Positions 28,919 to 63,044 of a stretch of DNA of 64,000 nucleotides are shown here, one piece after another. A program made the position numbers and the translations under genes. Position 1 is the stretch's first letter; every line of letters starts with the position of its first letter. This DNA comes from Elmis aenea (taxonomy: Eukaryota; Arthropoda; Insecta; Coleoptera; Elmidae). Location: positions 5,580,001 through 5,644,000 of the forward strand of contig OX393579.1 in assembly GCA_947652605.1 (NCBI GenBank), read 5' to 3'. A model generated the notes under the pieces. That model was given only the letters and a program-made list of their open reading frames with translations, ran no database searches and had not been told where the DNA came from.

Positions 28919-31900
28919 TTAGGATGAATTTTCACATTTATATAACGGATTTAGATAATCACAAACATCTCGACGATTCTCTTCTTTAGCATAATCTAAC
29001 GCTGTATAACCGTATTCATCCTTGATATAAATATCAGCCCCGTGATCTACTAAAAGCTTAACAATGGACAAATGACCATAAAGAGCGGCCCAATGTAAAG
29101 GTGTTGCATTAACATTATCTCTAACATTAATGTCCGCTCCGCAATTCACCAATGAAATCGCTAGATCTAGATTTCCACGAGCACTCGCCAATTGTAATGC
29201 AGTCCAACCATCAAATTGTTTATTTATAATTCGGTTGAATGATTCAGAGTTTTTATGATTAACTAAATTATTTAATATAAATGTCGTGAAATTATTGTAA
29301 TAATTATACGAATAATAATGAAAATATATCTCTAGATTGTTGACGTCAATAATTATTGTTTTATCGTTAAATTTTGATGTAATTTTGTCGGCAATTCTAA
29401 ACGAATTTGTTTTAATTGCGTAATCTAAAGGATAAAACAATAATAAATTGTCTCTAACATGTTTTGCGCATTTAGATAACAAAATTACAACAATTTCTTC
29501 CATGACTAAGTTAGGATCATAATCTAATTGATGTTTCTTCAAATCTATTTCTTCGTTCCATTCTGGCACGGGATGTCTAAGACCCCACGAAGCTGCCAAA
29601 TGCAAAGGCGACCTCCCGCCCTCATCAACGTCATTAACAATGTCAGGAAATAATTTGATAATCGATTTAACCACATGTTTTTTCCTATTGACTATGGCAA
29701 GGTGTAATTGATTGTTTTTTGCTAACATTCTGTCAAAAACGTTACGAACGACATTGTAGTTGGGTTTTAATATTTCTTTGATCAACTTGAGGGCGACGTT
29801 TCGATTCGGACCTCCCTTAAAATTCGCACTAAGCCACTGGGCCACGAAATACTCCGCAAACGTCCGGTGCACGAAATTTATATTAAAGTCGCTGCCAACA
29901 ACTACGAGTCCGTCTTTCTGAACAAGTTTGGTTAAATTTTTAATAAAGGCATTAAAATGTGATAATTCGGTTTCGACGTCCAGTCCGCTTATTAAATCAT
30001 TAGGAAATATAATTTTTAGTGCGTACAAACTTTGATATTCGTTTATTAAATCACCAATTTCCTTATTGTAATGACCAAATTTGGATTTCAATATTTCCAA
30101 TTTTGCGCGAACAAAATTTTCATACAAATAAAGCAAATCGAAACTTTCGCTTAAATGAAGTTCTCCCGTTTGTGCATACTTTTTACAATCATCACTAAAA
30201 ACCTCCGCTAATAGTCTACACTGTAACGGCACGCCAGTAAATTCGTTATCCCAATCGCTTAAATTTTTTTTAGTCAATTCCAACAATTTATCAACAAATA
30301 TTTTTACCCTACCGCGACGATTATTTTGCAAATTATCAATTTCTTGTATAAAATACTTGTTCAAAAACGTAATTTGATCATCTTTACTAAACGGATTTAA
30401 TGCGATACTCAAAGTGTCAAACTTATCCTCGACATGCGCCTGCATTACCGGTCTAGTAGTGAGAATCATCTTATAATTGTTATCGTACAAAGAACTGATC
30501 ATGTCAGTCACCTCCCTTTCATACGTTGTCGCAATTTCGTCAAACCCATCTAAAATAATGAAAACACGATTACGAGCCAACAAACAATTAAATATTAATT
30601 CATTAATTTCTGTACCGCACGAATGATCGGCCATGATGGCTTTATTAAAATGCATTAAATGTTGAGACGGATTTGCATGATTTGTTTTAAATTCGTTACT
30701 GTCGTAATAATCTAAGTAAAGTTTTAAATCTACGAACAACACCCAAATATCTGAAGGTATTTTGTGAGCTATGTAATCCATGAGAGTGGATTTTCCCATC
30801 CCTGGCCCTGCGCTAATAATACAAAGTCTGTTTTGAAGATTATCAACCAAATTAATTGAAGAGGTACTAACGTCAGATTTTGTTTTATATTTTTTGATAT
30901 TTTTAATACCACGTTCGGTCTTAATTAATTCAAAAATGCTTTCATTTTCATTCAAACGCAACGCATGAATGCACTTACTTTGATTTTCTTTAACAATTAA
31001 TTGAAAACAATCACTTTGTGATAAAATGACATTATACTTGCGAATTATTTCTTTAATATTACAGTTAGTTGAATATTTAGCAAAGTTTATTCGTTTTATA
31101 TCCATATTATACTTTTTTACACAATCGTTAAAAATATTTTCGTTCTCAACGACAACTACAAATATATCGTTATTACATTCACTCAGTGCCTTAGGATCAA
31201 TTATTATTTTAGTTAAAGTTTGAGGTACGTAAGAAGGAAGCATTACATTTAACTCATTTCCTATACGAAACTTACTCATGAAAATATAAATTATATCTTT
31301 TACTAAAAGTTTATCTGTAAATTTTTCAATATTAAGTAATTGTTCTAATTTTATTAATTTCCCCTGCCATTTAACCCTTTCTTTTAATATATTTGCTTTC
31401 AAATCCCCCTTTAAAGCCGATAACTTATAAAATACGTTTGGATTTTTATCTAATTGCATATCATCGACAATCTCATTCACTAAAATTAAAACTCCTAATT
31501 TACATTCAGTGTTTTGTAACACATGTAATATCGCCCGATATTCTTCGATGTTATTAGCCCGTAATACTAAAGGTATTTCCCCTGCTAACCACATAACTTT
31601 AAAAATATCCAACAATGTAATGTTATCTGTGACTCCAAATAACCTACGAATTTGGATATCTATTCCTGATCCCTTCAAATTGCCCATAATTTTTTTCTTA
31701 TCAACAGACGTAAAGTTTGTGGTCCAATGTTTAATATAACCAATTTTGCTTACGTCTATATTACATCTTTTATTAATTTTATCAAGCACATACGTAACAA
31801 TAAAATCGTCAATGATATTACTTTTATCGGTTTCAACTAAAATTATTTTCTGAGTTTGTACAATGTCATTCCATGATCCTGTTTCGACAATTTTATGATA

Positions 31901-32863
31901 CTCAAACGCTGTCGAATAAAATTTGTTTATGAAAGGATCTGATAATAATTCAGTCAATTTGTTCAATATTAAGCATCTTGTGATTGTGTAAGGATTAGAA
32001 GCTGTGACACAATTATTTATAGAATTTAAATAATTTTTTGTAATTGCTGTCAAATCATGAGTATCGGAACAAAATTTTTTTATTTCGTTGCTCACAAGTT
32101 GATTCAGTGCAGATTGATCAGACTGGCCACAAAATAAAACTAATTTTTTTAAAAATGTGCCAAAGTTGTGATTATTAAAGTGTTCAGATAAATTTTTAAT
32201 ATCACCTAATATATTTTGAAAATTACTTTTATGAATTGATCGTAAATTAACTAAATATTGGTAATGATAATTTTGTAACTGTTTTTTTGATGAATCTAAT
32301 TTATCATTAAATTCCTGAATTGTTTTTATAGACGAAACAAAATCATGAATAACGTTATATTCATTAATAAACAGTTTATGATCTATGTTATAAATGTCAC
32401 AATCAGTGGTTCTTAGAGCTAATAATTCAGGATTTTCATTTCCTTTTAAAAATGCAAATTCACTATTGACTTTACGGTTTGTAAAAAGAATCAAATGAAT
32501 ATTATCGATATTTGCAACGATGTCTCCTATTTTACCTTGCTTATAATTACTTAAAATATTTTTATAACCCTCGAAATATTTAGTTAAACCAAAGTCCCCC
32601 CCTTTTTTTGCACAAAATTCATCATAACTAATGAGTTTACCTTTTTCTTGATGCTTTGCTTGCACCATGGAGGTCGTCCATGCTCCTCTACGGTATTTCG
32701 TCTTAACCACTAAATCATCAAATGGCAGACAACCTGCCACATTGACTGCCATTTGATAATCTTGAATCTCTTCGTCTTTAAATTGCTGCAGCGCTACAAA
32801 AGCGGGTAACTTGCTTTCGTAATCGCGTCCAACATCGGTTGTTCCGGGTCCTCTTGAGTATTT
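28919..32863 (-). CDS. NACHT-ankyrin STAND protein with nuclease-like N-terminus, copy A (main exon)
   Basis: The exon encodes 1,314 residues in one frame. It opens at a splice acceptor (TTCAG, 32864-32868) in phase 0, 37 codons before the first Met (32752), so a 5' exon is missing from this call. Counting from that Met: FDDLVV (11-16) and QAKH (31-34), with GRDYE 26 residues before the Met, form a PD-(D/E)XK-like set resembling DUF4297/Cap4 nucleases. Residues 60-620 are unrecognised. NACHT has Walker A GPGMGKST (649-656), Walker B VFIILDGFDE (730-739) and sensor MILTTRP (762-768), followed by GVPLQCRLLAE (840-850) and FVHRTFAEYF (960-969) of the winged-helix region. Ankyrin repeats fill about 1016-1270. 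There is no signal peptide or membrane segment, so it is probably intracellular. By family knowledge it should be a ligand-triggered NTPase. A defence role is inference. Confidence 0.85.
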   Translation of the reverse strand, partial: KYSRGPGTTDVGRDYESKLPAFVALQQFKDEEIQDYQMAVNVAGCLPFDDLVVKTKYRRGAWTTSMVQAKHQEKGKLISYDEFCAKKGGDFGLTKYFEGYKNILSNYKQGKIGDIVANIDNIHLILFTNRKVNSEFAFLKGNENPELLALRTTDCDIYNIDHKLFINEYNVIHDFVSSIKTIQEFNDKLDSSKKQLQNYHYQYLVNLRSIHKSNFQNILGDIKNLSEHFNNHNFGTFLKKLVLFCGQSDQSALNQLVSNEIKKFCSDTHDLTAITKNYLNSINNCVTASNPYTITRCLILNKLTELLSDPFINKFYSTAFEYHKIVETGSWNDIVQTQKIILVETDKSNIIDDFIVTYVLDKINKRCNIDVSKIGYIKHWTTNFTSVDKKKIMGNLKGSGIDIQIRRLFGVTDNITLLDIFKVMWLAGEIPLVLRANNIEEYRAILHVLQNTECKLGVLILVNEIVDDMQLDKNPNVFYKLSALKGDLKANILKERVKWQGKLIKLEQLLNIEKFTDKLLVKDIIYIFMSKFRIGNELNVMLPSYVPQTLTKIIIDPKALSECNNDIFVVVVENENIFNDCVKKYNMDIKRINFAKYSTNCNIKEIIRKYNVILSQSDCFQLIVKENQSKCIHALRLNENESIFELIKTERGIKNIKKYKTKSDVSTSSINLVDNLQNRLCIISAGPGMGKSTLMDYIAHKIPSDIWVLFVDLKLYLDYYDSNEFKTNHANPSQHLMHFNKAIMADHSCGTEINELIFNCLLARNRVFIILDGFDEIATTYEREVTDMISSLYDNNYKMILTTRPVMQAHVEDKFDTLSIALNPFSKDDQITFLNKYFIQEIDNLQNNRRGRVKIFVDKLLELTKKNLSDWDNEFTGVPLQCRLLAEVFSDDCKKYAQTGELHLSESFDLLYLYENFVRAKLEILKSKFGHYNKEIGDLINEYQSLYALKIIFPNDLISGLDVETELSHFNAFIKNLTKLVQKDGLVVVGSDFNINFVHRTFAEYFVAQWLSANFKGGPNRNVALKLIKEILKPNYNVVRNVFDRMLAKNNQLHLAIVNRKKHVVKSIIKLFPDIVNDVDEGGRSPLHLAASWGLRHPVPEWNEEIDLKKHQLDYDPNLVMEEIVVILLSKCAKHVRDNLLLFYPLDYAIKTNSFRIADKITSKFNDKTIIIDVNNLEIYFHYYSYNYYNNFTTFILNNLVNHKNSESFNRIINKQFDGWTALQLASARGNLDLAISLVNCGADINVRDNVNATPLHWAALYGHLSIVKLLVDHGADIYIKDEYGYTALDYAKEENRRDVCDYLNPLYKCENSS

Positions 32864-32868
32864 CTGAA
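32864..32868 (-). promoter_or_regulatory. splice acceptor of NACHT gene A
   Basis: TTCAG on the minus strand directly before AAATACTC. The equivalent site in copy B is TTTCAG at 55162. In both copies the exon begins on a codon boundary and the frame stays open into the main reading frame. The tract before it is A-rich, so the call is moderate. Confidence 0.5.
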
Positions 32869-34184
32869 TTTTTTTTTCGAATGTTAATTTACAAAACAGT
32901 AAGTACCATAAAAATTGGCAAAAATTTAAAACTAAAAATATATTCTAAGCGAAAACTGTACCGTGTTCAGGTTTTATTCAATAATTTGGAAACGAATATA
33001 GCATTTAAAAATGTACTTTTTTGGCCTTTATGGGGTATCGTAATGCAATCTCGTTATAAATACTTCATAAAGAAAAGGTAAACCCATAAAAATAAACCGT
33101 TAATAAAAATAATTACTTCACTTAATTTCTGCTAGAGCAATTATAAAGACAAAATATAGATGTCGTCTAATGTCTGGAAAAAAGTTGCGATAACTTCAAT
33201 GACACCCCGATTTTACAGACCACCCTAAAAAAAAGCTCTCATCACGCTTAAAATGTAATAATTGTGGCATTTATGGTATAATAAATATTTACTTTAAGTT
33301 TAGGAATTAAAATAATTTAGGTCACTATGGGGATCTCGCATAATATAAACGATATGGATTCGATTAATAAAGAGAAAAGTTGCATGTAATAGTACTCAGC
33401 GGGTACCGATATTAATTTCTATGTTGTGAAAATGCATAGGCAACTTGATCTAAACAAAAAATTAAATTGTGCAAGTTATCAATTTGTTTAATATAATCTT
33501 TAGTTTAAAAATAAAAAATCTGAATTTGTATGCATTTTTGCATAAGTTCACATTTAAAACAATGTGGTGTGATTAGCTTTTTGATGAAAACCCTACCAAA
33601 CTTTTGATTTTCATTTATGAAAACCATAGTAGTAGATGTTTGCTGGAACAGATAACATCTCTTATTCTGTTTTTAAAGATGTATTACTTGCGTTTTCTTT
33701 TTATAAATGTACAAATGCCAACAACAAAACCTTTTTAAAACCTTTTTTATTGGGTGAGCCATAAACGTTGTCGTTTAGTTTATAAACAAGAAAACAAAAT
33801 GGTCAACCTTCAAAACTGACACATTTGAGTTTATTACAGTGGATTATGAATATTGATATTTGCTTAGATTGTTTTTGATAGCAAAATTGTTTAAACTTTT
33901 TATTTATACGCATCTTTGAAAAGGGGAAAACTCTATCTTACCTTATCTATTTATGTCAATATCTACATAACTTAGTGTGCCATGAAAAACATATAGGTAC
34001 CTACAATGAATCTATTGGGCTTATAAAATTGTCACAATAAACTAAAAATTCAGATTTGTCTTTAAAAATTGGAAAATATATTAAACAATATAAAAGATCA
34101 TATATCATTTTTGGTTTCTATTACGTCAGCTATGCGTTTTTCAAAACATTATAATGTCTCTTTGCTATCTATTGAGCTCTAATA
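32869..34184. other. upstream flank of NACHT gene A, first exon not identified
   Basis: Duplicated at 55162-56461. The 5' exon and promoter of the NACHT gene should lie here or beyond. A minus-strand TATAAATA near 33903-33910 is a candidate, but no ATG-plus-donor combination is conserved in both copies. A fragment of the CACTATGGGGATCTCG transposon motif lies near 33324. Confidence 0.35.
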
Positions 34185-34839
34185 TACAGGGTGTAGACTC
34201 GGATCACGGACCATAGCAATTTCAATGGTAAAAATTTAAAAGTCGTATTCTTGCTCCCCTAATTATTTTAGAAAAAAAGTGCTAATACGTTTTTTGTAGA
34301 GAAAAAAATTCTGTATCCATAAATGTATTCAATTAATATTTTAGTTTTCCAATAACTGAAAATTAAGCAATTAAAAAACGCGTTTTCACAAACAATCTGA
34401 TGTAGTGCCTTGGAATTATGCTATGACAACTGCCCCGCCTAATGTCACTTATACTGTCACTTTGACGTGAAATTTTTATTATATCTTGGAATGAAAACAT
34501 AAGTAACTGTGTAAAATAAATGTTTGATAAAATATAAAGGATAATTAAGAATGAATTTCGCGTCAAAGTGGAAGTATCAGTGAAATTAGGCTGGACAGTT
34601 GTCATAGCATAATTCCAAGGCACTACAGATTTTTGTGAAAACGCGTATTTTAATTGCTTAATTTTAAGTTATTGGAAGATGAAAAAGTATTATTGATTTC
34701 ATTTATGGATACAGATTTTTTTTTCTACAAAAAACGTATTTGCACCTTTTTTCTAAAATAATTAGGGGAGCAAGAATACGACTTTTAAATTTTTACCATT
34801 GAAATTGCTATGTTGCGTGATCCGAGTCTACACCCTGTA
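34185..34839. mobile_element. 0.65-kb palindromic element (copy A)
   Basis: TACAGGGTGTAGACTCGG and its mirror close a full palindrome with TA at both borders; an inner pair is CTTGGAATTATGCTATGACA. The same insertion is present at 56462-57131 in copy B, so it predates the duplication. Confidence 0.85.
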
Positions 34840-34933
34840 TGTAACTTTTGGCTAATTTATCCGAATCCTTATTACTTATATTAAACGAGATTCTCATAGT
34901 GGCCTGAATTAATTGCTCAACCCTGCACATACA

Positions 34934-36839
34934 TACAGGGTGCGCCATTAGTGCGATGAAGTCCATTATTGCCCTTAATGTCAACTTATTAAAAAAAAGT
35001 TTTAAATGAAACTTATAGTATTTCTAGACGTGCATGTTTTAAAATTAGTTTCAAGTATACAGGGTGTTTCTTAAAAGTGGGGCGTCACTAAAGGTATTTT
35101 TTTTAAATTGAACACCCAGTATATTTTTGCATAATCGAATTCAGCAAGAAAATCTCCATATGACAGTATTTTGTTTTTTTCATTTTTTTTGCGACGTTGC
35201 CAATTTATCTCCAAAAATCTTTGAATTTCCAGAAAAACAGGGTACAATACTTGTCAAGAGCACAACGTTATGAATAATAATTGGCAAATGATATTTTGTA
35301 CATACAAAGTCAAAAGGTGTAGTCATAGTCTAAATACATCAAAATTCATTTATATTATACAGGGTGTTTCTTATAGATGTGCCAACTTCCCAATTTTCAA
35401 ACATCAATAACTTTATTTTTTCAAATGGAACACCCTGTATATTATTACGTAATTTTGTTGCAATTTTGTTTTTCTTCAACTTTTCTTAATACTTACCTAT
35501 AGCTAAAGTGAATATTTTCTGAGTTATTTACATTTTACTTATTCTTATAAGCGTTGTGTAGGAATTTCCTAGTTTTCTCGGAGTAGGCCCCGACTTTGAC
35601 AATAGAAACAATAATTATCTGTAGTAACAAATGCCAGAGTAAGTTGCTGTCAATTGTTAAAACATAAATAAATGAGTATAACATATTCAATATGAATTTT
35701 CCAAAAGAAGAATTGATTGATACGGTCTATGTTCAGGGTGGCGTATTTTCGATGTCCATAAAGTACATGAGTAAAAAAATTAAATTTCGCTATCTTATTA
35801 AGAACAAAAAACTATAAAAAAATGTCTAAAGTTTTTCTTTATCTTTTTGTTTAAGCGAGATATTTAACATTTTTGAAAATTGACAAAAACCGGTTTTTGG
35901 CTATATTTCGAAAATTAAAAAAGATATCAAAAATCTGTTTACGACAATGAATTCCTCTCGAAAAAATAAGTTGAGACTTCGCACTTGTTTTTTTTCTATC
36001 TCTGATAATAACCGAGATACTCCCCTGTATGTGCATCGAAAATACGCCACCCTGAACATAGACCGTATCAATCAATTCTTCTTTTGGAAAATTCATATTG
36101 AATATGTTATACTCATTAATTCATATTTAACAATTGACAGCAACTTACTCTGACATTTGTTACTACAGATAATTATTGTTTCTATTGTCAAAGTCGGGGC
36201 CTACTCCGAGAAAACTAGGAAATTCCTACACAATGCTTATAAGAATAAGTAAAATGTAAATAACTTAAAAAATATTCACTTTAGCTAGAAAAGTTGAAGA
36301 AAAACAAAAATGCAACAAAATGACGTAATAATATACAGGGTGTTCCATTTGAAAAAATAAAGTTATTGATGTTTGAAAATTGGGAAGTTGGCACATCTAT
36401 AAGAAACACCCTGTACAATATAAATGAATTTTGATGTATTTAGACTATGACTACACCTTTTGACTTTGTATGTACAAAATATCATTTGCCAATTATTATT
36501 CATAACGTTGTGCTCTTGACAAGTATTGTACCCTGTTTTTCTGGAAATACAAAGATTTTTGGAGATAAATTGGCAACGTCGCAAAAAAAATGAAAAAAAC
36601 AAAATACTGTCATATGGAGATTTTCTTTCTGAATTCGATTATGCAAAAATATACTGGGTGTTCAATTTAAAAAAAATACCTTTAGTGACGCCCCACTTTT
36701 AAGAAACACCCTGTATACTTGAAACTAATTTTAAAACATGCACGTCTAGAAATACCATAAGTTTTATTAAAAACTTTTTTTTAATAAGTTGACATTAAGG
36801 GCAATAATGGACTTCATCGCACTAATGGCGCACCCTGTA
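34934..36839. mobile_element. 1.9-kb palindromic element, full length (copy A)
   Basis: TACAGGGTGCGCCATTAGTG and mirror. Inside each arm are more end motifs (35060, 35361 and 35432 and mirrors) and a central pair containing GGTGGCGTATTTTCGATG. The copy B version (57226-58195) lacks 936 bp of the centre. No transposase frame is recognised. Confidence 0.85.
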
Positions 36840-37008
36840 TTTGTATAAATGATGATACGAACATATTTTTAAAAGTTATCAAATATCTGCGCTTACAAGT
36901 AATAAAATATTTTCGCAATTAGAATGCTACTAAAGTTTGGGGGAAAACGTGACATACTTTTCGTGAAAAGACGGACAACGGTACATAAAGATTAAAAAGT
37001 GCCTGTAA

Positions 37009-40000
37009 TACAGGGATGCGCAAAAGTATGGAAACAGACAAATATCTTGAACACTATTGCAGATATATCAATGATATCAATTTTGTATCTGAGCGTTATG
37101 GTATTTTTGGATTCGATGAAAATATTAAGGTTGCAATGCGACTTCCGGTTCAACCGGAAACGGATTCAAACTTTATAATCTTAAATAGAACGTCCTGTAT
37201 ATTTCTACATTTTTAGAATTCTTTCAAGCTTTACTTTAAAAAATGTATAAGGTTATGTTGGTCTAAAGTCAACCGTTTTCGTAAAATTTATATTTAAATG
37301 AAAATTTTGAGCGATACAGCACTTTCAATTTTTTTTAAAAATTTAAGTTATTTAAAAAAACCGGTAGGATTTTTTTTGGAAACGAGATTAACAATTGATT
37401 AATTAACCATTGGCGCTAGCTACATTTTAAAAATATTATACAGGTTGTTTTTTACGCTTAGTCAAACTTGTCAATCTTTAAATTTAAACATCGATAACTC
37501 GGTTTTCTTAAATACAACACACTATTTGTTTTTACATAGTCTTGCAAAAAATGTCATTGTCATTCAAAACATTAACCATGTTTCATACCGAAAACTAATT
37601 TTTTTCGAGTTATCGAGAATTTATTGTAAATTATTTGGGCAACGTAATATTTTCGAGTAGGCTATGCAGTAGACAGCGGTAATTTTAAAACAATTAAAAG
37701 ATAAAAACAAGAAAGTTACAATATTATTTTTTCCTTCGAATTTTCGAAATTTTTTATGATGTAATTTTACCAATCTTACGTTTATATCGCGTCTCTTATG
37801 AGGGCCACAATATTTTTAATTTTAAAAAAATATTGAGAAATTGTGATCGTTCGCAGTCTTAAAAACCGATTTATAATGTATTGAGTACGCGAAAAAAACG
37901 CTGATTAAACAAGTCATTAACCTGTCTTATTTTTATATTTAAAAAAAAAAAAATGGTTAGGGTTGAAACCGTTTCCGGTTCAACCGAAAATCATACTGTA
38001 GAAACACAAAAAAAATGGTTTATAGAATGTAGTAATTGTCCAATTAATAAATGCATAATTTTAAGAAATCTTGATTTAAATGTAATGCAAAAAAATTATC
38101 GTATACCTTATTAGAAATGTCGAAAATAAGTGAAGAAAAGATACTATTATAATTTTCTTGTTTTTCTTTCAATTGTATCAAAACTACCGCTGTCTATGTT
38201 TATAGCCTACGCGAAAATATTACTTTACCCAAATAATTTACAATACAGGGTTCTCGTTTTTCGAGGGCCACTATAGGGATCTCGTAAACGGTAAGAGTTA
38301 CGACTTCGGTTAAATTAGGGCAAAGTTGTATATTCAGGTGCTTAATAATTTTTAGAACTTATCTTGCTCTTTTAGTTTTTGAGATATAGGGAAAAAAGTA
38401 AAAAAGTGGATTTTTGTTTTTTGCCCGTAACTTTTTCATTTGATGTCGAATTTAATTTCTGTAAAAACTTTTTTACGGCCACTTTTTGCAAGGAATCATA
38501 ATCCCTAATTATATTTTCCGTGCGACGTTTCGTTTTTTTTTTTTAACCATCATCAGGTCATTTTTTTTTATGGACGCGATATCTGATTTTAACGCCAATT
38601 TGTAGAGCATTTACTTCTGAATTCGATAATGTATTTACTTGGGACTTTTTTGAAACAATTGTTGTTAAGAATGGCAAAAACAAATATTTTATTTAAAACA
38701 AGTCGTAATCGGCAAGGTAAATAATTGTCTTGGTCCCTTTTTCCTTGGAAGCAGGTAAGTAAACCGCATAAAACTACTGTTGAAAAGATTTAATTAAAAA
38801 AATAGGTATTAATAAGTATGTTAGGAATGCATTAACATTGTACACTTATTAGCAAATATTTTTATAATATTTTCTTTGGTTAAGTAATAAATTTCTCTAA
38901 AATGTGTATTTAATCCTTATCTGGCATACAATTATTTGTAACAAAAAATAACGAGTTATGCCTTTTATCTGCGTTAATGACTTCTAATAAGCAAAAGCGT
39001 AAACAGATTTCTGGACGTTTTTTGTGAACTATGAACACTCATATTATTTGATTACGAAAATTTTGTTACAAATAATTGTATGTCAAATAAGGGATAAAAT
39101 ACACATTTTAGAGTTTTATACTTAACTGAGGAAAATATTCTAAAAATATTTGCTAATAAGTGAACAATGTTTATGCATTCCTAACATATTTATAAATACC
39201 TATTTTTTAATTAAATCTTTTAAATAGTAATTTCATGCGGTTTACTTACCTGCTTCCAAGGAAAAAGGGACAAAGACAATTATTTACCTTGTAAATAAAA
39301 TATTTGTTTTTGCCATTTTAAACAACAATTGTTTCAAAAAAGTCCCAAGTAAATACATTATCGAATTCAGAAATAAATGCTCTACAAATTGGCGTTAAAA
39401 TCATATATAGCGTTCATAAGAAAAAATTGACCTGATGATGGTTTAAAAAAAAAAACGAAACGTCGCACGAAAAATATAATTAGGGATTATGATTCCTTGC
39501 GAAAAGTGGCCATAAAAAAGTTTTTACAGAAATTAAATTCGACATCAAATGAAAAAGTTACGGGCAAAAAACAAAAATCCTATTTTCAAAAACTAAAAGA
39601 GCTAGATAAGTTCTGTTTGCATCGAATTATTAAGCACCTGAATATACAACTTTGCCCTAATTTAACCGAAGTCGTAACTCTTACCGTTTACGAGATCCCC
39701 ATAGTGGCTATCGAAAAACGAGAACCCTGTATAGTCGCGATAACTCGAAAAATATTAGTTTTAGATATGAAACATGGTGAATGTGTTTGAAAGACAATCA
39801 AATTTTCTACAAGGCTATGTAAAAACAAATAATATGTTGTATTTAAGAAAATTGAGTTAACAATGTTTAAAGTTTAACAAGTTTGACCAAGCGTAAAAAA
39901 ACACCCTGTATAATATTTTAAAAATGTAGCTAGCGCTAACGGTTAATTAATCAATTGTTAATTTAATTTACAAACAAAATTCTACATCTTTTAAACAACT

Positions 40001-40333
40001 TGAATGTTAAAAAAAAATTGAAAGCGCTGTATCACTCAAAATTTTCATAAAAATGTAAATTTTACGAAAACGGTTGACTTTAGACCAACATAACCCTATG
40101 CAATTTTAAAGTAAATTTTAAGAGGAATCTAAAAATGTAATAATACACAGTGTGTTCCATTTAAAATTTTAAAGTGTGAGTCCGTTTCCGGTTGAACCGG
40201 AGGTCGCATTGCAATCTTAATATTTTCATCGAATCCGAAAAATACCATAACGCTCAGGTACAAAATTTGAATGTTATATCTGCAATAGTATTCTAGATAT
40301 TTGTCTTTTTCCATACTTTTGCGCAACCCTGTA
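37009..40333. mobile_element. 3.3-kb compound palindrome (copy A)
   Basis: The ends are TACAGGGATGCGCAAAAG and mirror. The outer arms cover about 37009-37615 and 39732-40333. Between them lie an inner palindrome (about 37615-38243) and a complete second palindromic element (38244-39731). Both carry TTCCGGTT.AACCGGAA motifs. It is present in copy B at 58365-61674 with few size changes, so the compound structure existed before the duplication. Confidence 0.85.
38244..39731. mobile_element. 1.5-kb palindrome nested inside the compound element (copy A)
   Basis: TACAGGGTTCTCGTTTTTCG and mirror, with TA borders. The arms contain the GGGATCTCGTAAACGGTAAG block also found in the element at 18920-20404, showing common ancestry. 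The 97-codon frame at 39497-39790 is palindrome sequence, not a gene. Confidence 0.8.
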
Positions 40334-40673
40334 TGTATACTGACATTTTAAAAATTTAACAGCCTTTAAATTGCAAAATTTTTTAATAGTTGAAAATTAA
40401 TATATTAAAATTAAATAACTTAGAAAAATTAAAATCATTAAAACTTCGGTCTATGATAATGTGCAACATATTTTTTTTAAAAAAATTATTTAAATGTATA
40501 ATCTAACTTTCTATATTCGAGCGAAAACACAAATATACCTACTTTAAATGTCAAGTCAGTGTGTAAAATCAATGAAATTTTGAAAGTTCTCTATTCGAAA
40601 TCACTATGGTTTATTGTATTATGTATAAATAACAAATAATGAGTGTAAAATGACAACTACCCGTCTTGCTCAA

Positions 40674-40773
40674 GCGCTTCAAGTCGCCTGTCAAAGTTAA
40701 CCTCTGGGGGTGTAGCACTGATTTCTCGCTGCTACCCTTTAGGTTAACTTTTTTAACATGCGATGTGAAGCGC
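40674..40773 (-). ncRNA. candidate structured RNA hairpin (copy A)
   Basis: A 100-nt imperfect inverted repeat with three paired blocks: GCGCTTCA..TCGC with GCGA..TGAAGCGC, AGTTAACCT with AGGTTAACT, and GGG..TAGCA with TGCTACCC, closed by an 11-14 nt loop. It is identical base for base at 62009-62108, although flanking bases differ. On the minus strand a TATATAAG motif precedes it directly, and it lies just past the poly(A) signal of the short gene. It could be a small-RNA precursor, a 3'-end element or a tiny foldback transposon. Confidence 0.4.
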
Positions 40774-40795
40774 CTTATATAGCTAAGACAAAATT

Positions 40796-41441
40796 TTAAT
40801 ACGTTTTATTTATGTACATTAATTTTAAAACATATCTAAATACTAACTGAAGGTTGCAAGATTGATGTTGATGTTCCAGGCAACCCTACGGGTGTACGGG
40901 TATATGACAAAGATAAAGTTTTATGATTGAAGGTTTACGATAAATTGCTTGTGATTCTTATCAGCGCAATACTTAACAAAAAAAAAGTGTTAACACTTAC
41001 ACTAGGCTGCAACTTTTCTGTCGATGTTTCGGGTTTTTTTTCGATAGAGTTTGATTGGTCAACAGATCCGTTCCTGGAACAGGATGGTTTCATTGCAGGC
41101 AATTCCTTCTCTGTTGTAGAAATATTTTTAGCAGGTTTTCTTCCACTTTTATCAGTGTAATTTTTTGAACAAGATGGTTCTGTTACGTGCAATTGCATAT
41201 CTCGTGTAGACATTTCTTCAACAGATTTTCTTCCGCCAACAGATTCGCTCCTAGAACAGGATGGCTCCATGCTACATAATTCCATCTCCACCTTAGTCAT
41301 TTCATCGTCGACTACTTTAAATGCTTCCACTATTTTCTTATTAGAACGTGCCAACCTTCGTCCTTCGTTAGCAATTTCTTTTATTCTTGTAGTACATTGT
41401 TTGATGCTGCTCAAAAATACAGTAAGGCTGAGTGCATCCAT
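40796..41441 (-). CDS. short repeat protein with PSCS/GRK repeats, copy A (two exons)
   Basis: Exon 1 (41441-41001, 147 codons) starts MDALSLTVFLSSIKQ and ends at a consensus donor, GTAAGT. A 154-base intron ends TTCAG, and exon 2 (40846-40796) adds 16 codons in phase, with AATAAA at 40805-40810. The total is 163 residues. Residues 1-50 are predicted helical with a hydrophobic start. The rest has three repeats of about 30 residues of the form M.L...PSCS....GRK. There is no signal peptide cleavage site or known domain. The same gene lies at the same place in copy B. Both splice sites are conserved, so it is probably real. The helical start recalls the N-termini of HeLo/SesA-like partners of STAND proteins, but this is only a hint. 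Confidence 0.6.
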
Positions 41442-50345: not shown

Positions 50346-51168
50346 ATGTGTATTTTGTGTATCTATTATTTGCAGAAAATAATTTTGAATTATTTTTTAA
50401 ATTTAAATTTTAAAAAATTGCGTTTAATTCGTCGCTGTTCTCGTAAATTTTAACTGTATTTGTAAACAAAATATTGTGTATTAATTAGGTCGAATCCGGG
50501 CCCCCTTTGCAACACTGTGCCCTGGGAATTATTTGCGTATCACCCTCTGTAGTCGGCCCAGCGAACGAGTGCGGCAGTTGCTACCAGCAAAATGCAATGG
50601 CGGTGCGACCTCCTAGCTGCGTACGGACAGTGAGCAATATACGAGATTTTAATTAAATAATTGAAATAGTTTTGTAGTAGAAACATTTGAATTGGTGCAT
50701 TTTTAGGTACAGAAGAAGATCGAGTGATGTTAGATATTGGTCCGACAGAGAAGCGTCGATTAAAAAAGAAAGAGGATGAACATTTCGAACATGCAAATTA
50801 ATGAAACACAAAAGTCGATGAATTAAAGTGAAACTGCGAAAGAAGAAGCGATTTTAGTTAATTAATTTTAATTATTTCACGAATGTGAGTGAAATATTAA
50901 CGAATAAATCAAACGAATTAAATAAATATTTTGAATAGGTAATTTGAGGAAAACGAAACCGATTTAACGGAAATTTTCTTATTTAATTTGATTTATTCGT
51001 TAATTTTTTATTGTTTGTTCATTGTAAAAGTCGTGAGGGGCTGTTAGTTACCGATTTAAATTAATTTAGTCACTTTAGCGAACTTTGACTGAAATTGATA
51101 AAATTGCGTTACGTTGATGACATTGATGACGCGGGATCACACAGGAAGTTCATGTTTTGATGACACAA
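50346..51168. other. junction and 3' flank of NACHT gene B
   Basis: Homology to copy A begins at 50519. Short plus frames differ from those in copy A (a frame from 50728 has 24 codons here and 36 in A), so they are not supported as genes. Confidence 0.4.
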
Positions 51169-51174
51169 TTTATT
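51169..51174 (-). terminator. poly(A) signal of NACHT gene B
   Basis: AATAAA on the minus strand 10 bases after the stop codon, at the position conserved in copy A. Confidence 0.6.
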
Positions 51175-51183
51175 ATAAACGTC

Positions 51184-54100
51184 TCAAGACGTTCTGAAAA
51201 GTTCTTTAAATCTTTCGAATTTACTTTTATATAACGGATTTAGATAATCACAAACATATCGATGATTATTTAGTTTAGCCCAATCTAACGCTGTTTTACC
51301 TCCATCATTCTTGATATAAATATCAGCCCCGTGATCTACTAAAAGTTTAACAATGGACAAACGACCAAGAAAAGCTGCCGAATGTAAAGGTGTTTTATTA
51401 TATTTACCTCTAACATTTACGTCCGCTCCGCAATTCAATAATAAAATCGCTAGATCTAGTTGTCCACGAAGAGTCGCATAATGTAATGCAGTCTTACCAT
51501 CAAATTGTTTATTTATAATTTGTTTGAACGATTCAGAGTTTTTATGATTAACTAAATCATTTAATATAAATGTCGTGAAATTTTTGTAACGATATTTATA
51601 TATATAATAATAATGTAAACATATCTCTAGATCGTTGACGTCAATATTTACTGTTTTGTCATTAAATTTTGTTGTAATTTGGTCGGCAACCCAAAATGAA
51701 TTTGTTTTCATTGCGTAATCCAAAGGATAAAACAATAATAAATTGTCTCTAACATGTTTTGCGCCTTTGGATAACAAAAGTTTAGCAATATTTTCCATGA
51801 CTAAGTTAGGATTAAGAACTAATGTATGTTTATCCTTATCTATTTCTTCCCCCCGTTCTGGCACGGGATGTCTAAGGCCCCACGAAGCTGCCAAATGCAA
51901 AGGCGACCTCCCGCCCTCATCAACGTCATTAACAATGTCGGGACGTGATCTGATCATCGATCTAACCTCACCGATTTGCCTGTTGACTATGGCAAGGTGT
52001 AATTTATGATTTTTTGCCAAAATTCTGTCAAAAACGTTATGAACGACATTGTAGTTGGGTTTTAATATTTCTTCGATCAACTTGAGGGCGACATTTCGAT
52101 TCGGACGATCATCCTGATAATTTTTACTGAGCCACTTGGCCACGAAATATTCCGCAAACGTCCGGTGCACGAAATTCATATTAAAGTCGCTGCTAACAAC
52201 TACGAGTCCGTCTTTCTGAACTAATTTAGACAAATTTTTAAGAACAACATGAAAATGTGATAATTTGGTTTCAACGTCCAATTCGTTTATTAATTCACTG
52301 GGAAATATAATTTTTAGCGCGTACAAACTTTGATACGCGTTAACTGTATCACTAATTTCTTTATTGTAATGACCAAATTTGGATTTCAATATTTCCAATT
52401 TTGCGCGAACAAAACTTTCATACAAATAAAGCAAATCGAAACTTTCGCTCAAGTTAAGTTTTCCTGTTTGTGCATAAATTTTACAATCATCACTGAAAAC
52501 CTGCGCTAATAGTCTACACTGTAATGGGACGCCAGTGAATTCGTTATCCCAATCGCTTAAATTCTTTTTGGTCAAATCTAACAATTTATTAACAAACATT
52601 TTTACCCTACCGCGACGATTATTTTGCAAATTATCGATTTCCTGTGTGAAATATTTATTCAAAAACGTAATTTGATCATTTTTACTAAACGGATTTAATG
52701 CGATACTCAAAGTGTCAAACTTATCCTCGACATGCGCCTGCATTACCGGTCTAGTAGTGAGAATCATCTTATAATTGTTATCGTACAAAGATCTGATCAT
52801 AACAGTCACCTCGCTTTCATACGTTGTCGCAATTTCGTCAAATCCATCGAAAATAATAAAAACACGATAATGAGCCAACATACAATTAAATATTAATTCA
52901 TTAATTTCTGTACCGCACGAATTCTCGGCCATGATGGCTTTATTAAAATGCATTAAATGTTGAGACGGATTTGCATGATTTGTTTTAAATTCTTTACTGT
53001 CGTAATAATCTAAGTAAAGTTTTAAATCTACGTTTAACACCCAAATATCTGATGGTATATTGTGTGCTATGTAATCCATGAGAGTTGATTTTCCCATCCC
53101 TGGACCTGCGCTGATAATGCAAAGTTTGTTATGAAGATTATCAACTAAATTAATTGAAGAAATACTAACGTAAGATTTTGTTCTATATTTTTTGATATTG
53201 CTGATACCACGTTCTGTCATAATCAATTCAAAAATGCTTACATTTTCATTCAAACGCAACGCATGAATGCACTTACTTTGATTTTCTTTAACAATTAATT
53301 GAAAACAATCACTTTGTGATAAAATGACATTATAGTTGCTAATTATTTCTTTAATATTACAGTTAGTTGAATATTTAGCAAAGTTTATTCGTTTTATATT
53401 AATATTATATTTTTTTAAACATTCGTTAAAAATATTTTCATTCTCAACGATAACTACAAATATATCGTTTTTACATTCACTCAGTGCCCTAGGATCAATT
53501 ATTATTTTAGATAAAGTTTGAGGTACGTAAGAAGGAAGCGAAACATTTAACTCGTTTCCTACACAAAATTTACCCATCAAAATATAAATTATATCTTTTA
53601 CTAAAATCTTATCTGTAAATTGTTCAATATAAGATATTTGTTCTAATTTTATTAATTTCCCCTGAAATTTAACCTTTTCTTTTAATATATTTGCTTTCAA
53701 ATCCCCCTTTAAATCCGATAACTTATAAAATACGTCTGAATTTTCATATAACTGCATATCATCAACAATCTTATTGACTAAAATTAAAACTCCTAATTTA
53801 CATTCAGTTTTTTGTAACACATGTAATATAGCCCGATATTCTACGATGTTATTAGCCCGTAATACTAAAGGTATTTCCCCCGCTAACCACATAACTTTAA
53901 AAATATCCAACAATGTAATGTTATCTGTGACACCAAATAACCTACGAATTTGGATATCTATTCCTGATCCCTTCAAATTGTCCATAATTGTCTTATTATT
54001 GTCAGACGTAAAGTTTGTAGTCCATGTTTTGATATAATCAAATTTACCTACATCTATATTACATCTCTTATTAATTTTATCAAGCACATAAGTAACAATA

Positions 54101-55161
54101 AAATCGTCGATGATATTACTATTATCGGTTTCAACTAAAGTAATTTTCTGAGTTTGTACAATGTCATTCCATGATCCTGTTTCGACAATTTTATGATAAT
54201 CAAACGCTGTCGAATAAAATTGGTTTATGAACGGATGTAATAATAATTCAGTCAATTTATTCAATATTAAGGATCTGGTGATGGTGTGAGGTTTAGAAGC
54301 CAAAACGCAACTATTTATAAAATCGAAATACATTTTTGTAATTGTTGTCAAGTCATGGATACCATAATAACAAAAAAAATTTAATTCATTTCTGACAAGG
54401 TGGTCTATTTTAATGTGGTTAACTTGATCACAAAATAAAACTAATCTATTTAGAAATGTGCAAAAGTTTTGATTATTAAAGTGTTTGGAAAAATCCTGAA
54501 TATCTGCTAATATTTTTTGAAAATTATTTGTATAAATTGATCGTAAGTTAATTAAATATTGCCTGTGATAATCTTTTAGTAGATTTGTTGGTGAAGCCAA
54601 TTTTTCATTAAATTCCTGAATTGTTTTTACAGACGAAACAAAATCATGAATAACGTTATATTCTTTTATAAACAGTTCATGATCTATGTTATAAATGTCA
54701 CTATCTGTTGTCCTTAGAGCTAATAATTCAGTATTGCTATTTTTTGTTAAAAATGCAAATTTACTATTGACAATGCGATTTGTAAAAAGAATTAAATGAA
54801 TACCATCGATATTTGCCACAATGTCTCTTATTTTACTTTGCTTATACTTATCTAAAATATCCTGATAACCCTTGTAATATTTTAATAAACTAAAGTCACC
54901 CTTTTTTGCACAAAATTCATCGTAACTAATGAGTTTACCTTTCTCTTGATGCTTTGCTTGCACCATGGAGGTCGTCCATGCTCCTCTACGATATTTCGTC
55001 TTAACCACTAAATCATCAAATGGAAGACAACCTGCCACATTGACTGCCATTTGATAATCTTGAATCTCTTCGTCTTTAAATTGCTGCAGCGCTACAAAAG
55101 CGGGTAACTTGCTTTCGTAATCGCGTCCGACATCGTTCGTTCCAGGTCCTCTCGAGTATTT
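51184..55161 (-). CDS. NACHT-ankyrin STAND protein with nuclease-like N-terminus, copy B (main exon)
   Basis: Paralogue of 28919-32863, one open frame of 1,325 codons from the splice acceptor TTTCAG at 55162. The frame stays open a little upstream, but its only start there would be a TTG, which is not credible. GRDYE, FDDLVV and QAKH are all present, and the 50 residues after the internal Met (55050) match copy A exactly. Walker A is at 53083-53106; Walker B reads VFIIFDGFDE; the MILTTRP sensor is unchanged. The NACHT core differs at 14 of 161 residues, residues about 150-260 much more, and the last three ankyrin repeats at 26 of 92. The C-terminus is longer (KFERFKELFRTS). Intact reading frames in both copies argue that both are functional. 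Confidence 0.85.
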   Translation of the reverse strand, partial: KYSRGPGTNDVGRDYESKLPAFVALQQFKDEEIQDYQMAVNVAGCLPFDDLVVKTKYRRGAWTTSMVQAKHQEKGKLISYDEFCAKKGDFSLLKYYKGYQDILDKYKQSKIRDIVANIDGIHLILFTNRIVNSKFAFLTKNSNTELLALRTTDSDIYNIDHELFIKEYNVIHDFVSSVKTIQEFNEKLASPTNLLKDYHRQYLINLRSIYTNNFQKILADIQDFSKHFNNQNFCTFLNRLVLFCDQVNHIKIDHLVRNELNFFCYYGIHDLTTITKMYFDFINSCVLASKPHTITRSLILNKLTELLLHPFINQFYSTAFDYHKIVETGSWNDIVQTQKITLVETDNSNIIDDFIVTYVLDKINKRCNIDVGKFDYIKTWTTNFTSDNNKTIMDNLKGSGIDIQIRRLFGVTDNITLLDIFKVMWLAGEIPLVLRANNIVEYRAILHVLQKTECKLGVLILVNKIVDDMQLYENSDVFYKLSDLKGDLKANILKEKVKFQGKLIKLEQISYIEQFTDKILVKDIIYILMGKFCVGNELNVSLPSYVPQTLSKIIIDPRALSECKNDIFVVIVENENIFNECLKKYNINIKRINFAKYSTNCNIKEIISNYNVILSQSDCFQLIVKENQSKCIHALRLNENVSIFELIMTERGISNIKKYRTKSYVSISSINLVDNLHNKLCIISAGPGMGKSTLMDYIAHNIPSDIWVLNVDLKLYLDYYDSKEFKTNHANPSQHLMHFNKAIMAENSCGTEINELIFNCMLAHYRVFIIFDGFDEIATTYESEVTVMIRSLYDNNYKMILTTRPVMQAHVEDKFDTLSIALNPFSKNDQITFLNKYFTQEIDNLQNNRRGRVKMFVNKLLDLTKKNLSDWDNEFTGVPLQCRLLAQVFSDDCKIYAQTGKLNLSESFDLLYLYESFVRAKLEILKSKFGHYNKEISDTVNAYQSLYALKIIFPSELINELDVETKLSHFHVVLKNLSKLVQKDGLVVVSSDFNMNFVHRTFAEYFVAKWLSKNYQDDRPNRNVALKLIEEILKPNYNVVHNVFDRILAKNHKLHLAIVNRQIGEVRSMIRSRPDIVNDVDEGGRSPLHLAASWGLRHPVPERGEEIDKDKHTLVLNPNLVMENIAKLLLSKGAKHVRDNLLLFYPLDYAMKTNSFWVADQITTKFNDKTVNIDVNDLEICLHYYYIYKYRYKNFTTFILNDLVNHKNSESFKQIINKQFDGKTALHYATLRGQLDLAILLLNCGADVNVRGKYNKTPLHSAAFLGRLSIVKLLVDHGADIYIKNDGGKTALDWAKLNNHRYVCDYLNPLYKSKFERFKELFRTS

Positions 55162-56461
55162 CTGAAATTTTTTTTCGAATGTTAATTTACAAAATAGTAA
55201 GTACCATAAAAATTGGCACAAATTTAAAACTAAAAATATATTCTAAGCGAAAACTGTACCGCGTTCAGGTTTTGTTCAATAATTTGGAAACGAATATAGC
55301 AAATAAAAATGTACTTTTTGGCCTTTATCGTAATTCAATGTCGTTATAGATACTTCATAAAGAAAAGGTAAACCCAACAAAATAAACCGTTAATAAAAAT
55401 AATTACTTCACTTAATTTCCGCTAGAGCAATTATAAAGACAAAATTAGATCTCGTCTAATGTTTGGAAAAAAGTAGCGATAACTTCAATGACACTCCGAT
55501 TTAACAGACCACCCTAAAAAAAAGCTCTCATCACGCTAAAAATGTAATAATTGTGGCATTTATGGTATAATAAATATTTATTTTAAGTTTAGGAATTAAA
55601 ATAATTTAGGTCACTATGGGGATCTCGCATAATATAAACGATAGGGATTCGATTAATGAAGAGAAAAGTTGCATGTAATAGTACTCAGCGGGTAGCGATA
55701 TTTCTATGTTGTGAAAATGCATAGGCAACTTGATCGAAACAAAAAATTTAATTGTGCGAGTTATCAATTTGTTTAATATAATCTCTAGTTTAAAAATAAA
55801 AAATCTGCATTTGTATGCATTTTTGCATAAGTTCACATTTAAAACAATGTGGTGTGATTAGCTTTTTGATGAAAACCCTACCAAACTTTTGATTTTCATT
55901 TATGAAAACCATAGTAGATGTTTGCTGGAACAGATAACATCTCTTATTCTGTTTTTAAAGATGTATTACTTGCGTTTTCTTTTTATAAATGTACAAATGC
56001 CAACAACAAAACCTTTTTAAAACCTTTTTATTGGGTGAGCCATGAACGTTGTCGTTTAGTTTATAAGCAAGAAAACAAAAGTGTCAACCTTCAAAACTGA
56101 CACATTTGAGTTTATTAAAGTGGATTATGAATATTGATATTTGCTTAGATTGTTTTTGATAGCAAAATTTTTTAAACTTTTTATTTATACGCATCTTTGA
56201 AAAGGGGAAAACTCTATCTTATCTTATCTATTTATGTCAATATCTACATAACTTAGTGTGCCATGAAAAACATATACCTACAATGAATCTATTGGGCTTA
56301 TAAAATTGTCACAATAAACTAAAAATTCAGATTTGTCTTTAAAAATTGGAAAATATATTAAACAAAATAAAAGATCATATTTCATTTTTGGTTTCTATTA
56401 CGTCAGCTATGCGTTTTTCAAAACATTATAATGTCTCTTTGCTATCTATTGAGCTCTAATA
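55162..56461. other. upstream flank of NACHT gene B
   Basis: Duplicate of 32864-34184. A 60-codon plus frame (55918-56100) is open here but broken by one extra T in copy A, so it is not supported. The missing first NACHT exon was not found. Confidence 0.35.
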
Positions 56462-57131
56462 TACAGGGTGTAGACTCGGATCACGCAACATAGCAATTTC
56501 AATGGTAAAAATTTAAAAGTCGTATTCTTGCTCCCCTAATTATTTTAGAAAAAAAATGCAAATACGTTTTTTGTAAAGAAAAAAATTCTGTATCCATAAA
56601 TGTATTCAATTAATTTTTTAGTTTTCCAATAACTGAAAATTAAGCAATTAAAAAACGCGTTTTCACAAACAATCTGTAGTGCCTTGGAATTATGCTATGA
56701 CAACTGCCCCGCCTAATGTCACTTATACTGTCACTTTGACGTGAAGTTTATTCATAATAATCATTTTTATTATATCTTGGAATGAAAACATAACTAACTG
56801 TGTAAAATAAATGTTTGATAAAATATAAAGGATAATTAAGAATGAATTTCGCGTCAAAGTGACAGTATCAGTGAAATTAGGCTGGGCAGTTGTCATAGCA
56901 TAATTCCAAGGCACTACAGATTTTTGTGAAAACGCGTATTTTAATCTCTTAATTTTAAGTTATTGGAAAATGAAAAAGTAATATTGATTTCATTTATGGA
57001 TACAGATTTTTTTTCTCTACAAAAAACGTATTTGCACTTTTTTTCTAAAATAATTAGGGGAGCAAGAATACGACTTTTAAATTTTTACCATTGAAATTGC
57101 TATGTTGCGTGATCCGAGTCTACACCCTGTA
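56462..57131. mobile_element. 0.67-kb palindromic element (copy B)
   Basis: Same element and site as 34185-34839, with TACAGGGTGTAGACTCGG ends. Small insertions near the centre distinguish it from copy A. Confidence 0.85.
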
Positions 57132-57225
57132 TGTAACTTTTGGCTTATTTATCCGAATCATTATTACTTATATTAAACGAGATTCTCATAGTGGCCTGAA
57201 TTAATTGCTCAACCCTGCACATACA

Positions 57226-58195
57226 TACAGGGTGCGCCATTAGTGCGATGAAGTCCATTATTGCCCTTAATGTCAACTTATTAAAAAAAAGTTTTAAATG
57301 AAACTTATAGTATTTCTAGACGTGCATGTTTTAAAATTAGTTTCAAGTATACAGGGTGTTTCTTAAAAGTGGGGCGTCACTAAAGGTATTTTTTTTAAAT
57401 TGAACACCCAGTATATTTTTGCATAATCGAATTCAGCAAGAAAATCTCCATATGACAGTACTTTGTTTTTTTCATTTTTTTTGCGACGTTGCCAATTTAT
57501 CTCCAAAAATCTTTGAATTTCCAGAAAAACAGGGTACAATACTTGTCAAGAGCACAACGTTATGAATAATAAGCTTATAAGAATAAGTAAAATGTAAATA
57601 ACTCAGAAAATATTCACTTTAGCTATAGGTAAGTACCTATTAAGAAAAGTTGAAGAAAAACAAAAATGCAACAAAATGACGTAATAATATACAGGGTGTT
57701 CCATTTGAAAAAATAAAGTTATTGATGTTTGAAAATTGGGAAGTTGGCACATCTATAAGAAACACCCTGTATAATATAAATGAATTTTGATGTATTTAGA
57801 CTATGACTACACCTTTTGACTTTGTATGTACAAAATATCATTTGCCAATTATTATTCATAACGTTGTGCTCTTGACAAGTATTGTACCCTGTTTTTCTGG
57901 AAATTCAAAGATTTTTGGAGATAAATTGGCAACGTCGCAAAAAAAATGAAAAAAACAAAATACTGTCATATGGAGATTTTTTTGCTGAATTCGATTATGC
58001 AAAAATATATTGGGTGTTCAATTTAAAAAAAAAACCTTTAGTGACGCCCCACTTTTAAGAAACACCCTGTATACTTGAAACTAATTTTAAAACATGCACG
58101 TCTAGAAATACCATAAGTTTCATTAAAAACTTTTTTTTAATAAGTTGACATTAAGGGCAATAATGGACTTCATCGCACTAATGGCGCACCCTGTA
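57226..58195. mobile_element. palindromic element with deleted centre (copy B)
   Basis: Same site as 34934-36839 but 970 bp instead of 1,906 bp. The sequence jumps at 57572-57573 from the left arm (ATGAATAATA) straight into the right arm (GCTTATAAGAATAAG), removing the inner left arm and the symmetrical centre. The remaining arms are unequal. Confidence 0.85.
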
Positions 58196-58364
58196 TTTGT
58201 ATAAATGATGATACGAACATATTTTTAAAAGTTATCAAATATCTGCGCTTACAAGTAATAAAATATTTTCGCAATTAAAATGCTACTAAAGTTTGGGGGA
58301 AAACGTGACATACTTTTCGTGAAAAGACGGACAACGGTACATAAAGATTAAAAAGTGCCTGTAA

Positions 58365-61674: not shown

Positions 61675-62008
61675 TGTATACTGACATTTTAAAAATTTAA
61701 CAGCCTTCAAATTGCAAAATTTTTTAATAGTTGAAAATTAATATATTAAATAACTTAGAAAAATTAAAATCATTAAAACTTCGGTCTATAATAATGTGCA
61801 ACATATTTTTTTAAAAAAAATTATTTAAATGTATAATCTAACATTCTATATTCGAGCGAAAACACAAATATACCTACTTTAAATGTCAAGTCAGTGTGTA
61901 AAATCAATGAAATTTTGAAAGTTCTCTATTCGAAATCACTATGGTTTATTGTATTATGTATAAATAACAAATAATGAGTGTAAAATGACAAATACCCGTC
62001 TTGCTCAA

Positions 62009-62108: not shown

Positions 62109-62130
62109 CTTATATAGCTAAGACAAAATT

Positions 62131-62930: not shown

Positions 62931-63044
62931 AATAACTAAATGAATTACTTTACAAAATTTAAACAAGAATTACGAAAAGTTTTTCAATAAGCGAACTACG
63001 ACTGCTTTGAAAAAACTTTCAACTACGTGGAATATGAAAAGTAC

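Follow-up and report, generated by a model that had tools for sequence, protein, structure and literature searches.

Does an animal genome encode intracellular receptors that carry a nuclease of the bacterial defence type? This question is raised by a 64,000-nucleotide stretch of the genome of the beetle Elmis aenea (contig OX393579.1, positions 5,580,001 to 5,644,000; hereafter the window), in which a minus-strand gene encodes a NACHT-ankyrin protein, P0001, with a motif series at its N-terminal end that recalls bacterial effector nucleases. A sequence-only reading of this gene had proposed an animal STAND sensor with a nuclease-type effector, and that reading largely holds. We consider it likely that the gene belongs to a large family of NLR-like (STAND/NACHT) receptors whose genes recombine, and that these receptors are triggered by ligand and armed with a PD-(D/E)XK nuclease effector. 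Exon 1, a second copy in the window, a genome-wide family and the hypervariability of the ankyrin region go beyond what had been read.

Domain architecture and conservation of the N-terminal motifs

The protein of the sequence-only reading lies in a minus-strand open reading frame (ORF; 28919-32944) of 1341 codons from stop to stop, along which residues are numbered here. Near its start GRDYE (residues 39-43), FDDLVV (75-80) and QAKH (95-98) follow one another within 60 residues, as reported. The complete NACHT domain with the quoted motifs GPGMGKST, VFIILDGFDE and MILTTRP was recovered by Pfam (E 8e-11; 42.5 bits versus a curated cut-off of 26.7), and its Walker residue K718 as well as D802, E803 and R831 are present in 30/30 close paralogues. 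The C-terminal ankyrin repeats were likewise found (Ank_2, 1.1e-30, at residues 1224-1331). Above cut-off, Pfam gave nothing in the first 700 residues of the exon-2 ORF and nothing in exon 1; it found no CARD, PYD, BIR or LRR in exon 2, in agreement with the proposal that the architecture stands outside the standard animal NLRs. The middle part, residues 213-690, is without an assigned domain.

We searched the genome (516 Mb, 302 contigs) for relatives of this protein. P0001 as query gave 418 first-look candidates, a figure that is not usable as a family size because unrelated ankyrin genes may be included; 35 candidates were scored and 35/35 matched. The NACHT model matched at least 68 places, all above cut-off, of which 32 are on C4, the contig of the window, and 53/68 lie in open frames of 1200-1500 codons. 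Two samples were drawn from these searches. The first, L001-L030, holds the best-scored of the 418 candidates and is therefore biased to close, intact copies (L020 was excluded from one paralogue alignment for its stop); the second, L031-L040, holds 10 loci picked for divergence among the 68 NACHT places, of which L033 was excluded from the N-terminal alignment for its lipase-like N-terminus. The domains of the remaining nine diverged members are 26-47% identical to that of P0001.

G39, E43, F75, D76, D77, Q95, K97 and H98 are invariant in the 30 close paralogues. When the nine diverged members are added, G39, D76, D77, Q95, K97 and N156 remain in 39/39 aligned members and E43, F75 and H98 in 38/39, with a mean column identity of the domain of 74% in the 30 close members and 32% in 14 diverse ones. 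The motifs are thus not chance occurrences, and the D and Q.K residues, whose loss in relatives had been named as telling against a nuclease domain, are retained by every paralogue aligned.

Several members merit individual mention. In L033 (C5:30523900-30528900; ORF 1085-4999, plus strand) a class-3-lipase-like N-terminus with the motif GHSLGAW (Lipase_3 E 0.0016, below the Pfam cut-off) stands ahead of the NACHT domain in place of the nuclease-like domain, which hints at effector exchange on one scaffold. The diverged L031 (C7:27980100-27985100) has a weak ankyrin-like stretch ahead of its nuclease-like domain (Ank_2 0.0042, below cut-off), and in L032, also diverged (ORF 1125-5000, plus strand), the middle region contains ENANLKS-type heptads in a long tandem array that stays in frame. 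At C4:5151900-5152889 two adjacent NACHT matches fall within one 1452-codon open frame, perhaps encoding a double-NACHT protein. At C8:27084632-27145154, within about 61 kb, three NACHT places lie in open frames of unusual length (2068-2323 codons); L034 is part of one of the three.

Relationship of the N-terminal domain to defence nucleases

The likeness to DUF4297/Cap4, which the sequence-only reading had drawn from the motifs, is supported by two kinds of profile evidence. PADLOC defence-nuclease models match the domain in 9/39 members, 3/30 close and 6/9 diverged, with a best E of 3.2e-6; among the close members nine of the 30 were rescanned individually, together with the family consensus. 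The LmuA model matches L032 (3.2e-6), L030 (3.3e-5), L038 (3.8e-5), L027 and L026 (range to 2.5e-4), and the CBASS endonuclease effector and SAVED_PDDEXK (Cap4) models match L031, L034, L035, L037 and L038 (1.8e-4 to 0.018). Two type II restriction models, a CARF model and PDC-M63B each match one close member of the 30 scanned (0.0066 to 0.033). The nuclease models of PADLOC gave no match in the diverged members L036, L039 and L040, and none of six reversed domain sequences, trimmed to 200 letters, was matched.

A direct comparison with Cap4 was made from a bacterial seed. With the L031 domain as query, tblastn against 72,556 plasmid records returned two matches, the better of which has an E of 1 and is not significant alone (the L032 domain returned none). 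This better match, aligned over the motif stretch, is a Deinococcus protein that adjoins a nucleotidyltransferase gene; PADLOC identifies the protein as SAVED_PDDEXK (1.8e-161) and its neighbour as an oligonucleotide cyclase (8.7e-138), and it is therefore a real Cap4. A profile was built from the best 120 of 278 relatives of this seed, two of the 120 being without a listed SAVED domain. In hhalign, all 39 family members align with it over 112 columns (P 7e-6, probability 84.4%). Omission of L031, the member that had led to Cap4, leaves a P of 9.6e-5 (38 members, probability 58.5%, score 40.6), and the eight other diverged members alone give a P of 2.2e-5. The controls are clean: 60 column shuffles score at most 20.8 (best P 0.065), the reversed profile 9.8, and the Cap4 profile without its first 170 columns 20.5. 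A protein database yielded no homologue for residues 30-330 or for a 29-member alignment, a result with no bearing on the spread of the family, as the insect content of the database is uncertain. On the strength of the PADLOC matches and the hhalign comparison with its controls, we assign the domain to the Cap4/LmuA-type PD-(D/E)XK domains with good but not complete confidence.

Diversity of the ankyrin region, segment exchange and dN/dS

Variability among the 30 paralogues was measured over the last three ankyrin repeats. Repeat positions 2, 3, 5, 13 and 14, which we take to be the positions randomised in DARPin libraries, average 2.61 bits (n=15) versus 0.52 bits elsewhere (n=79), and 0/100,000 permutations with random choices of five positions were as extreme. 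Values are elevated as well at positions 10, 16, 1 and 4 (2.33, 1.46, 1.38 and 1.0 bits). The variability is thus concentrated on the likely concave binding surface of these repeats, as judged from their sequences. AlphaFold2 modelled the ankyrin region with a mean predicted local distance difference test score (pLDDT) of 71.9, reaching 83-97 over the last 91 residues, and five models ranged from 51 to 72. In the variable codons the first and second positions are the most changed (1.36 and 1.32 bits) and the third less so (0.73 bits); third positions of framework codons are quiet (0.20 bits). This codon pattern does not obviously suggest a retroelement-type diversifier, and we give targeted mutagenesis of ankyrin codons only a very slim chance.

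The family has a mosaic history. Among the 30 paralogues, distances calculated from different domains are barely correlated (Spearman -0.07 to 0.27) and the nearest relative switches along the gene, from which it follows that segments have been exchanged between paralogues. The two window copies, compared in 150-nt windows, are 93-100% identical on the 5' side (32907-35156; 96% over 36235-42506), 72-97% in the ORF (dS 0.197) and 83-94% on the 3' side (28257-28856). As the intron side is near-identical while the ORF and the 3' flank diverge, this is not a simple duplication; over 28257-35280 versus 50513-57572 the copies look as if other paralogues had traded exon 2 and the 3' side with them, or as if homogenisation had acted on the 5' side.

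Pooled over 435 paralogue pairs, the ratio of nonsynonymous to synonymous divergence (dN/dS) is 0.25 in residues 28-120, 0.32 in the NACHT domain and 1.14 in residues 1081-1336, and between the two window copies the corresponding values are 0.05, 0.24 and 1.34; these figures are descriptive and not tests, because pairs share sequences and recombine. For each of the 10 closest pairs, which share members, dN exceeds dS in residues 1081-1336. That the ankyrin sensor varies chiefly at the surface likely to bind suggests that the family is a ready-made set of intracellular immune receptors.

Proposed mechanism and alternative explanations

The mechanism that we infer leads from ligand binding through oligomerisation to cleavage, with a role in immunity. 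The C-terminal ankyrin surface would bind a ligand, upon which the NACHT domain, by the STAND switch mechanism, would exchange nucleotide and then oligomerise. Oligomerisation would gather the N-terminal Cap4/LmuA-type PD-(D/E)XK nuclease domains, and the gathered domains would cut nucleic acid, the invader's or the cell's, like bacterial NACHT-nuclease proteins. For the most specific form of this proposal we put the chances at even: a germline-encoded set of nuclease-armed NLR-like receptors, dozens strong or larger, in which gene conversion shuffles nuclease, NACHT and ankyrin segments, diversifying selection acts residue by residue on the ankyrin surface and the PD-(D/E)XK domain is an active DNase.

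A number of observations weigh against our interpretation. The LmuA model is not matched by 27/30 close members, and neither the N-terminus of P0001 itself nor the family consensus matches any PADLOC nuclease model. No Pfam nuclease model matches the N-terminal domain in P0001, the 30 close members or the diverged ones. Unrelated Pfam models match weakly, namely HNOB (haem-NO-binding) in 4/30 close members (best 0.0022) and Cas6_N in 3/30. The hhalign probabilities of 58.5% and 84.4% fall short of certainty, the 30 close members alone reach a P of 0.0056 and a probability of 6.5%, and an alignment that mixes family members with 38 Cap4 relatives looks meaningful, by eye, over about the first 100 columns only. 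Solved structures searched with the N-terminal profile included no relevant relative in the PDB (one irrelevant match, E 0.26), and AlphaFold2, given only the two window copies as input, modelled the N-terminal domain with a pLDDT of 31.7. L031 has Q at the E43 position, as does Cap4. For the ankyrin region, the DARPin position set was picked after the variability had been seen, and the region also varies elsewhere (around 1089-1097, 1135-1143, 1183 and 1212-1215). Finally, dN/dS is a weaker test where, as here, recombination is pervasive.

Of the rival explanations, the one that survives best, although we regard it as unlikely, holds that the N-terminal domain retains a restriction-endonuclease fold and yet, instead of cutting, binds nucleic acid or scaffolds the oligomer, with signalling left to another part such as the exon-1 segment. 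Exon 1 indeed places a further segment N-terminal to the domain and one member, L031, has exchanged E43; on the other hand, the predicted catalytic residues D76, D77, Q95 and K97 are kept in 39/39 members despite the low column identity among the diverse ones, and the glutamine of L031 is not plainly a loss because Cap4 also has it.

Next in plausibility, and likewise doubtful, is a non-immune family: a selfish or genome-conflict system (a toxin-antidote pair or a transposon-control factor) whose ankyrins would track internal targets. The domain order argues for an immune receptor, being that of the bacterial and fungal STAND cases discussed below and shared by plant immune receptors, although the copy number, the mosaicism and the transposase and LINE-type fragments nearby would fit a genome-conflict system as well.

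It is considerably less probable that the motif likeness reflects convergence or chance and that the domain is folded in some other way. Matches to several defence-nuclease models fall on the same stretch of motifs as an independent profile comparison, and the reversed and shuffled controls are clean; these results have to be set against the missing Pfam nuclease match, the weak unrelated Pfam matches, the weak hhalign signal of the close members alone and the unusable AlphaFold2 model from two sequences.

We find it hardly credible that the gene reached the genome recently from a bacterium such as Wolbachia, or that it is bacterial contamination. The only named sequence matches beyond this genome are indeed bacterial, but the splice sites of the predicted 8 kb intron match, copies by the dozen lie on chromosome-size contigs, transposon fragments adjoin the gene, and neither viral contigs nor phage records gave a match; on these grounds we rejected contamination or phage origin. 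The nuclease domain alone may nonetheless have been acquired by an ancient transfer.

Comparison with known systems

Our preferred reading, a nuclease-armed family of NLR-like receptors, was compared with known systems. The N-terminal domain resembles the nuclease domain of CBASS Cap4 (SAVED_PDDEXK), with which it aligns as G..Y(E/Q) - FDD - Q.K and whose relatives include solved structures (chains 7yia and 7yib). Cap4, which senses cyclic oligonucleotides via SAVED, differs in having neither NACHT nor ankyrins, and the window proteins P0001 and P0002 are not Cap4, because SAVED is matched in neither. The resemblance to Lamassu LmuA lies in the model matches of the five paralogues; LmuA, which works with the SMC-like LmuB, is without a STAND module. 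Avs (AVAST) proteins combine a nuclease with a STAND NTPase, and NCBIfam models of Avs3a and EruA gave short matches within the STAND part, at scores far below the full-length cut-offs (Avs3a 15.2 bits versus 2800, EruA 21.3 versus 1000), for which reason Avs proper was rejected. The proposed STAND sensor with a nuclease-type effector is thus upheld by domain order, motifs and profile relationship, though it is neither Cap4 nor Avs as such.

The closest design is that of bNACHT25 and bNACHT32, in which an N-terminal PD-(D/E)XK DNase effector and a central NACHT are joined in one protein, and which degrade DNA on MS2 infection, a degradation abolished by D48A (PMC12169576). They differ in being bacterial, in having a C-terminal NCH1 helical domain instead of ankyrins and in being without the exon-1 segment, and no hypervariable surface is described for them in the accessible text (PMC12169576). 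Fungal NLRs share NACHT and ankyrins with a diversified concave surface, on which the positively selected ankyrin sites lie with one exception, and undergo concerted evolution; their effectors are HET, patatin, PNP_UDP, sesB-like and others, with no PD-(D/E)XK named in the parts seen, and their variation is among repeats and alleles whereas that of the window family is among paralogues (PMC4986451). Arthropods have NACHT families that are homologues of a phage WO NACHT (PMC5062602), and animals fuse a nuclease, the HEPN RNase, to NACHT (PMC3710099); neither PD-(D/E)XK nor ankyrin hypervariability is described for these in the text available (PMC5062602, PMC3710099). A literature search, mostly without subscription papers and partly from incomplete texts, found no animal PD-(D/E)XK-NACHT-ankyrin protein and none combining DUF4297 and NACHT.

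If our reading is correct, a large family of intracellular receptors is maintained in one or more animal lineages, probably in insects, its effector a nuclease of the bacterial type and its receptor surface diversifying chiefly at the presumed sites of ligand contact. Such a family would be the animal equivalent, with a nucleolytic effector, of bacterial bNACHT/Avs proteins and of the NLR repertoires of plants and fungi. Through a common domain design it would connect animal immunity with the NACHT-nuclease defence of bacteria, and it would offer a concrete model of a diversified intracellular sensor in an invertebrate. Its ankyrins would be naturally evolved binders with recoverable ligands, in effect a DARPin library made by nature and coupled to a PD-(D/E)XK DNase.

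Gene structure, tandem copies and neighbouring features

From the sequence we predict a two-exon gene of about 1461 residues (147 + 1314), whose features are listed together with those of the second copy in Table 1. Exon 1 begins with MDALSLTVFLSSIKQCTTRIKEIANEGRRLARSNKKIVEAF.., probably helical as judged by eye, continues with a Ser-rich repeated linker and ends in CCT AGT, followed in phase 0 by the donor GTAAGT. The acceptor at 32863/32864 reads TTCAG followed by AAATAC, with 32863 as the first base of exon 2. In-frame stops across the 30 paralogues all lie at or before residue 27, except in L020 (341) and in L013 (1338, by the end), a distribution to be expected if coding in exon 2 begins at residue 28. 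The first ATG of exon 2 is M65, downstream of GRDYE. A translation start at M65 was rejected: residues 28-64 show a pooled dN/dS of 0.24 (435 paralogue pairs), a constraint which suggests that they are coding, and exon 1 supplies an ATG. A homologue of exon 1 is present upstream on the correct strand in 2/2 paralogues examined (L003 and L007), about 30% identical over 56-66 residues and ending in LQPx followed by GT(A/T)AGT.

Table 1. Predicted features of the window (positions counted from its first nucleotide)
Feature	Position	Strand	Details
Exon 1	41001..41441	-	147 codons, ATG at 41441
Intron 1	32864..41000	-	8137 nt, GT..AG, phase 0
Exon 2	28919..32863	-	1314 codons + stop; nuclease-like domain, middle region, NACHT/STAND, ankyrins
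PD-(D/E)XK-like domain, Cap4/LmuA-related	32309..32863	-	ORF residues 28-212; G39, E43, D76-D77, Q95, K97, N156
NACHT NTPase	30344..30826	-	Residues 707-867, Pfam
C-terminal ankyrin region	28937..29704	-	Residues 1081-1336
Three well-formed ankyrin repeats	28952..29218	-	Residues 1243-1331; variability peaks at repeat positions 2, 3, 5, 10, 13, 14
Tandem paralogue, exon 2	51184..55161	-	ORF 82% identical, same motifs
Tandem paralogue, exon 1	62331..62930	-	200 codons; longer linker repeat
Duplicated block	copy 1 28257-42506; copy 2 50513..64000		Further matching pieces 21022-25258 and 46249-49485

The tandem paralogue spans 51184-62930 on the minus strand and has an intron of 7169 nt. Between the two window genes exon 1 shows 14 nonsynonymous and four synonymous differences, and its Ser-rich repeat (PSCS..) occurs in unequal copy number (147 versus 200 codons). 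Elsewhere in the window, all on the plus strand, an ORF at 725-1270 is reverse-transcriptase-like by eye, without a Pfam match, a LINE-type endonuclease fragment lies at 1667-1990 (6e-11) and a mariner-type transposase fragment at 17905-18192 (Transposase_1, 4.9e-14).

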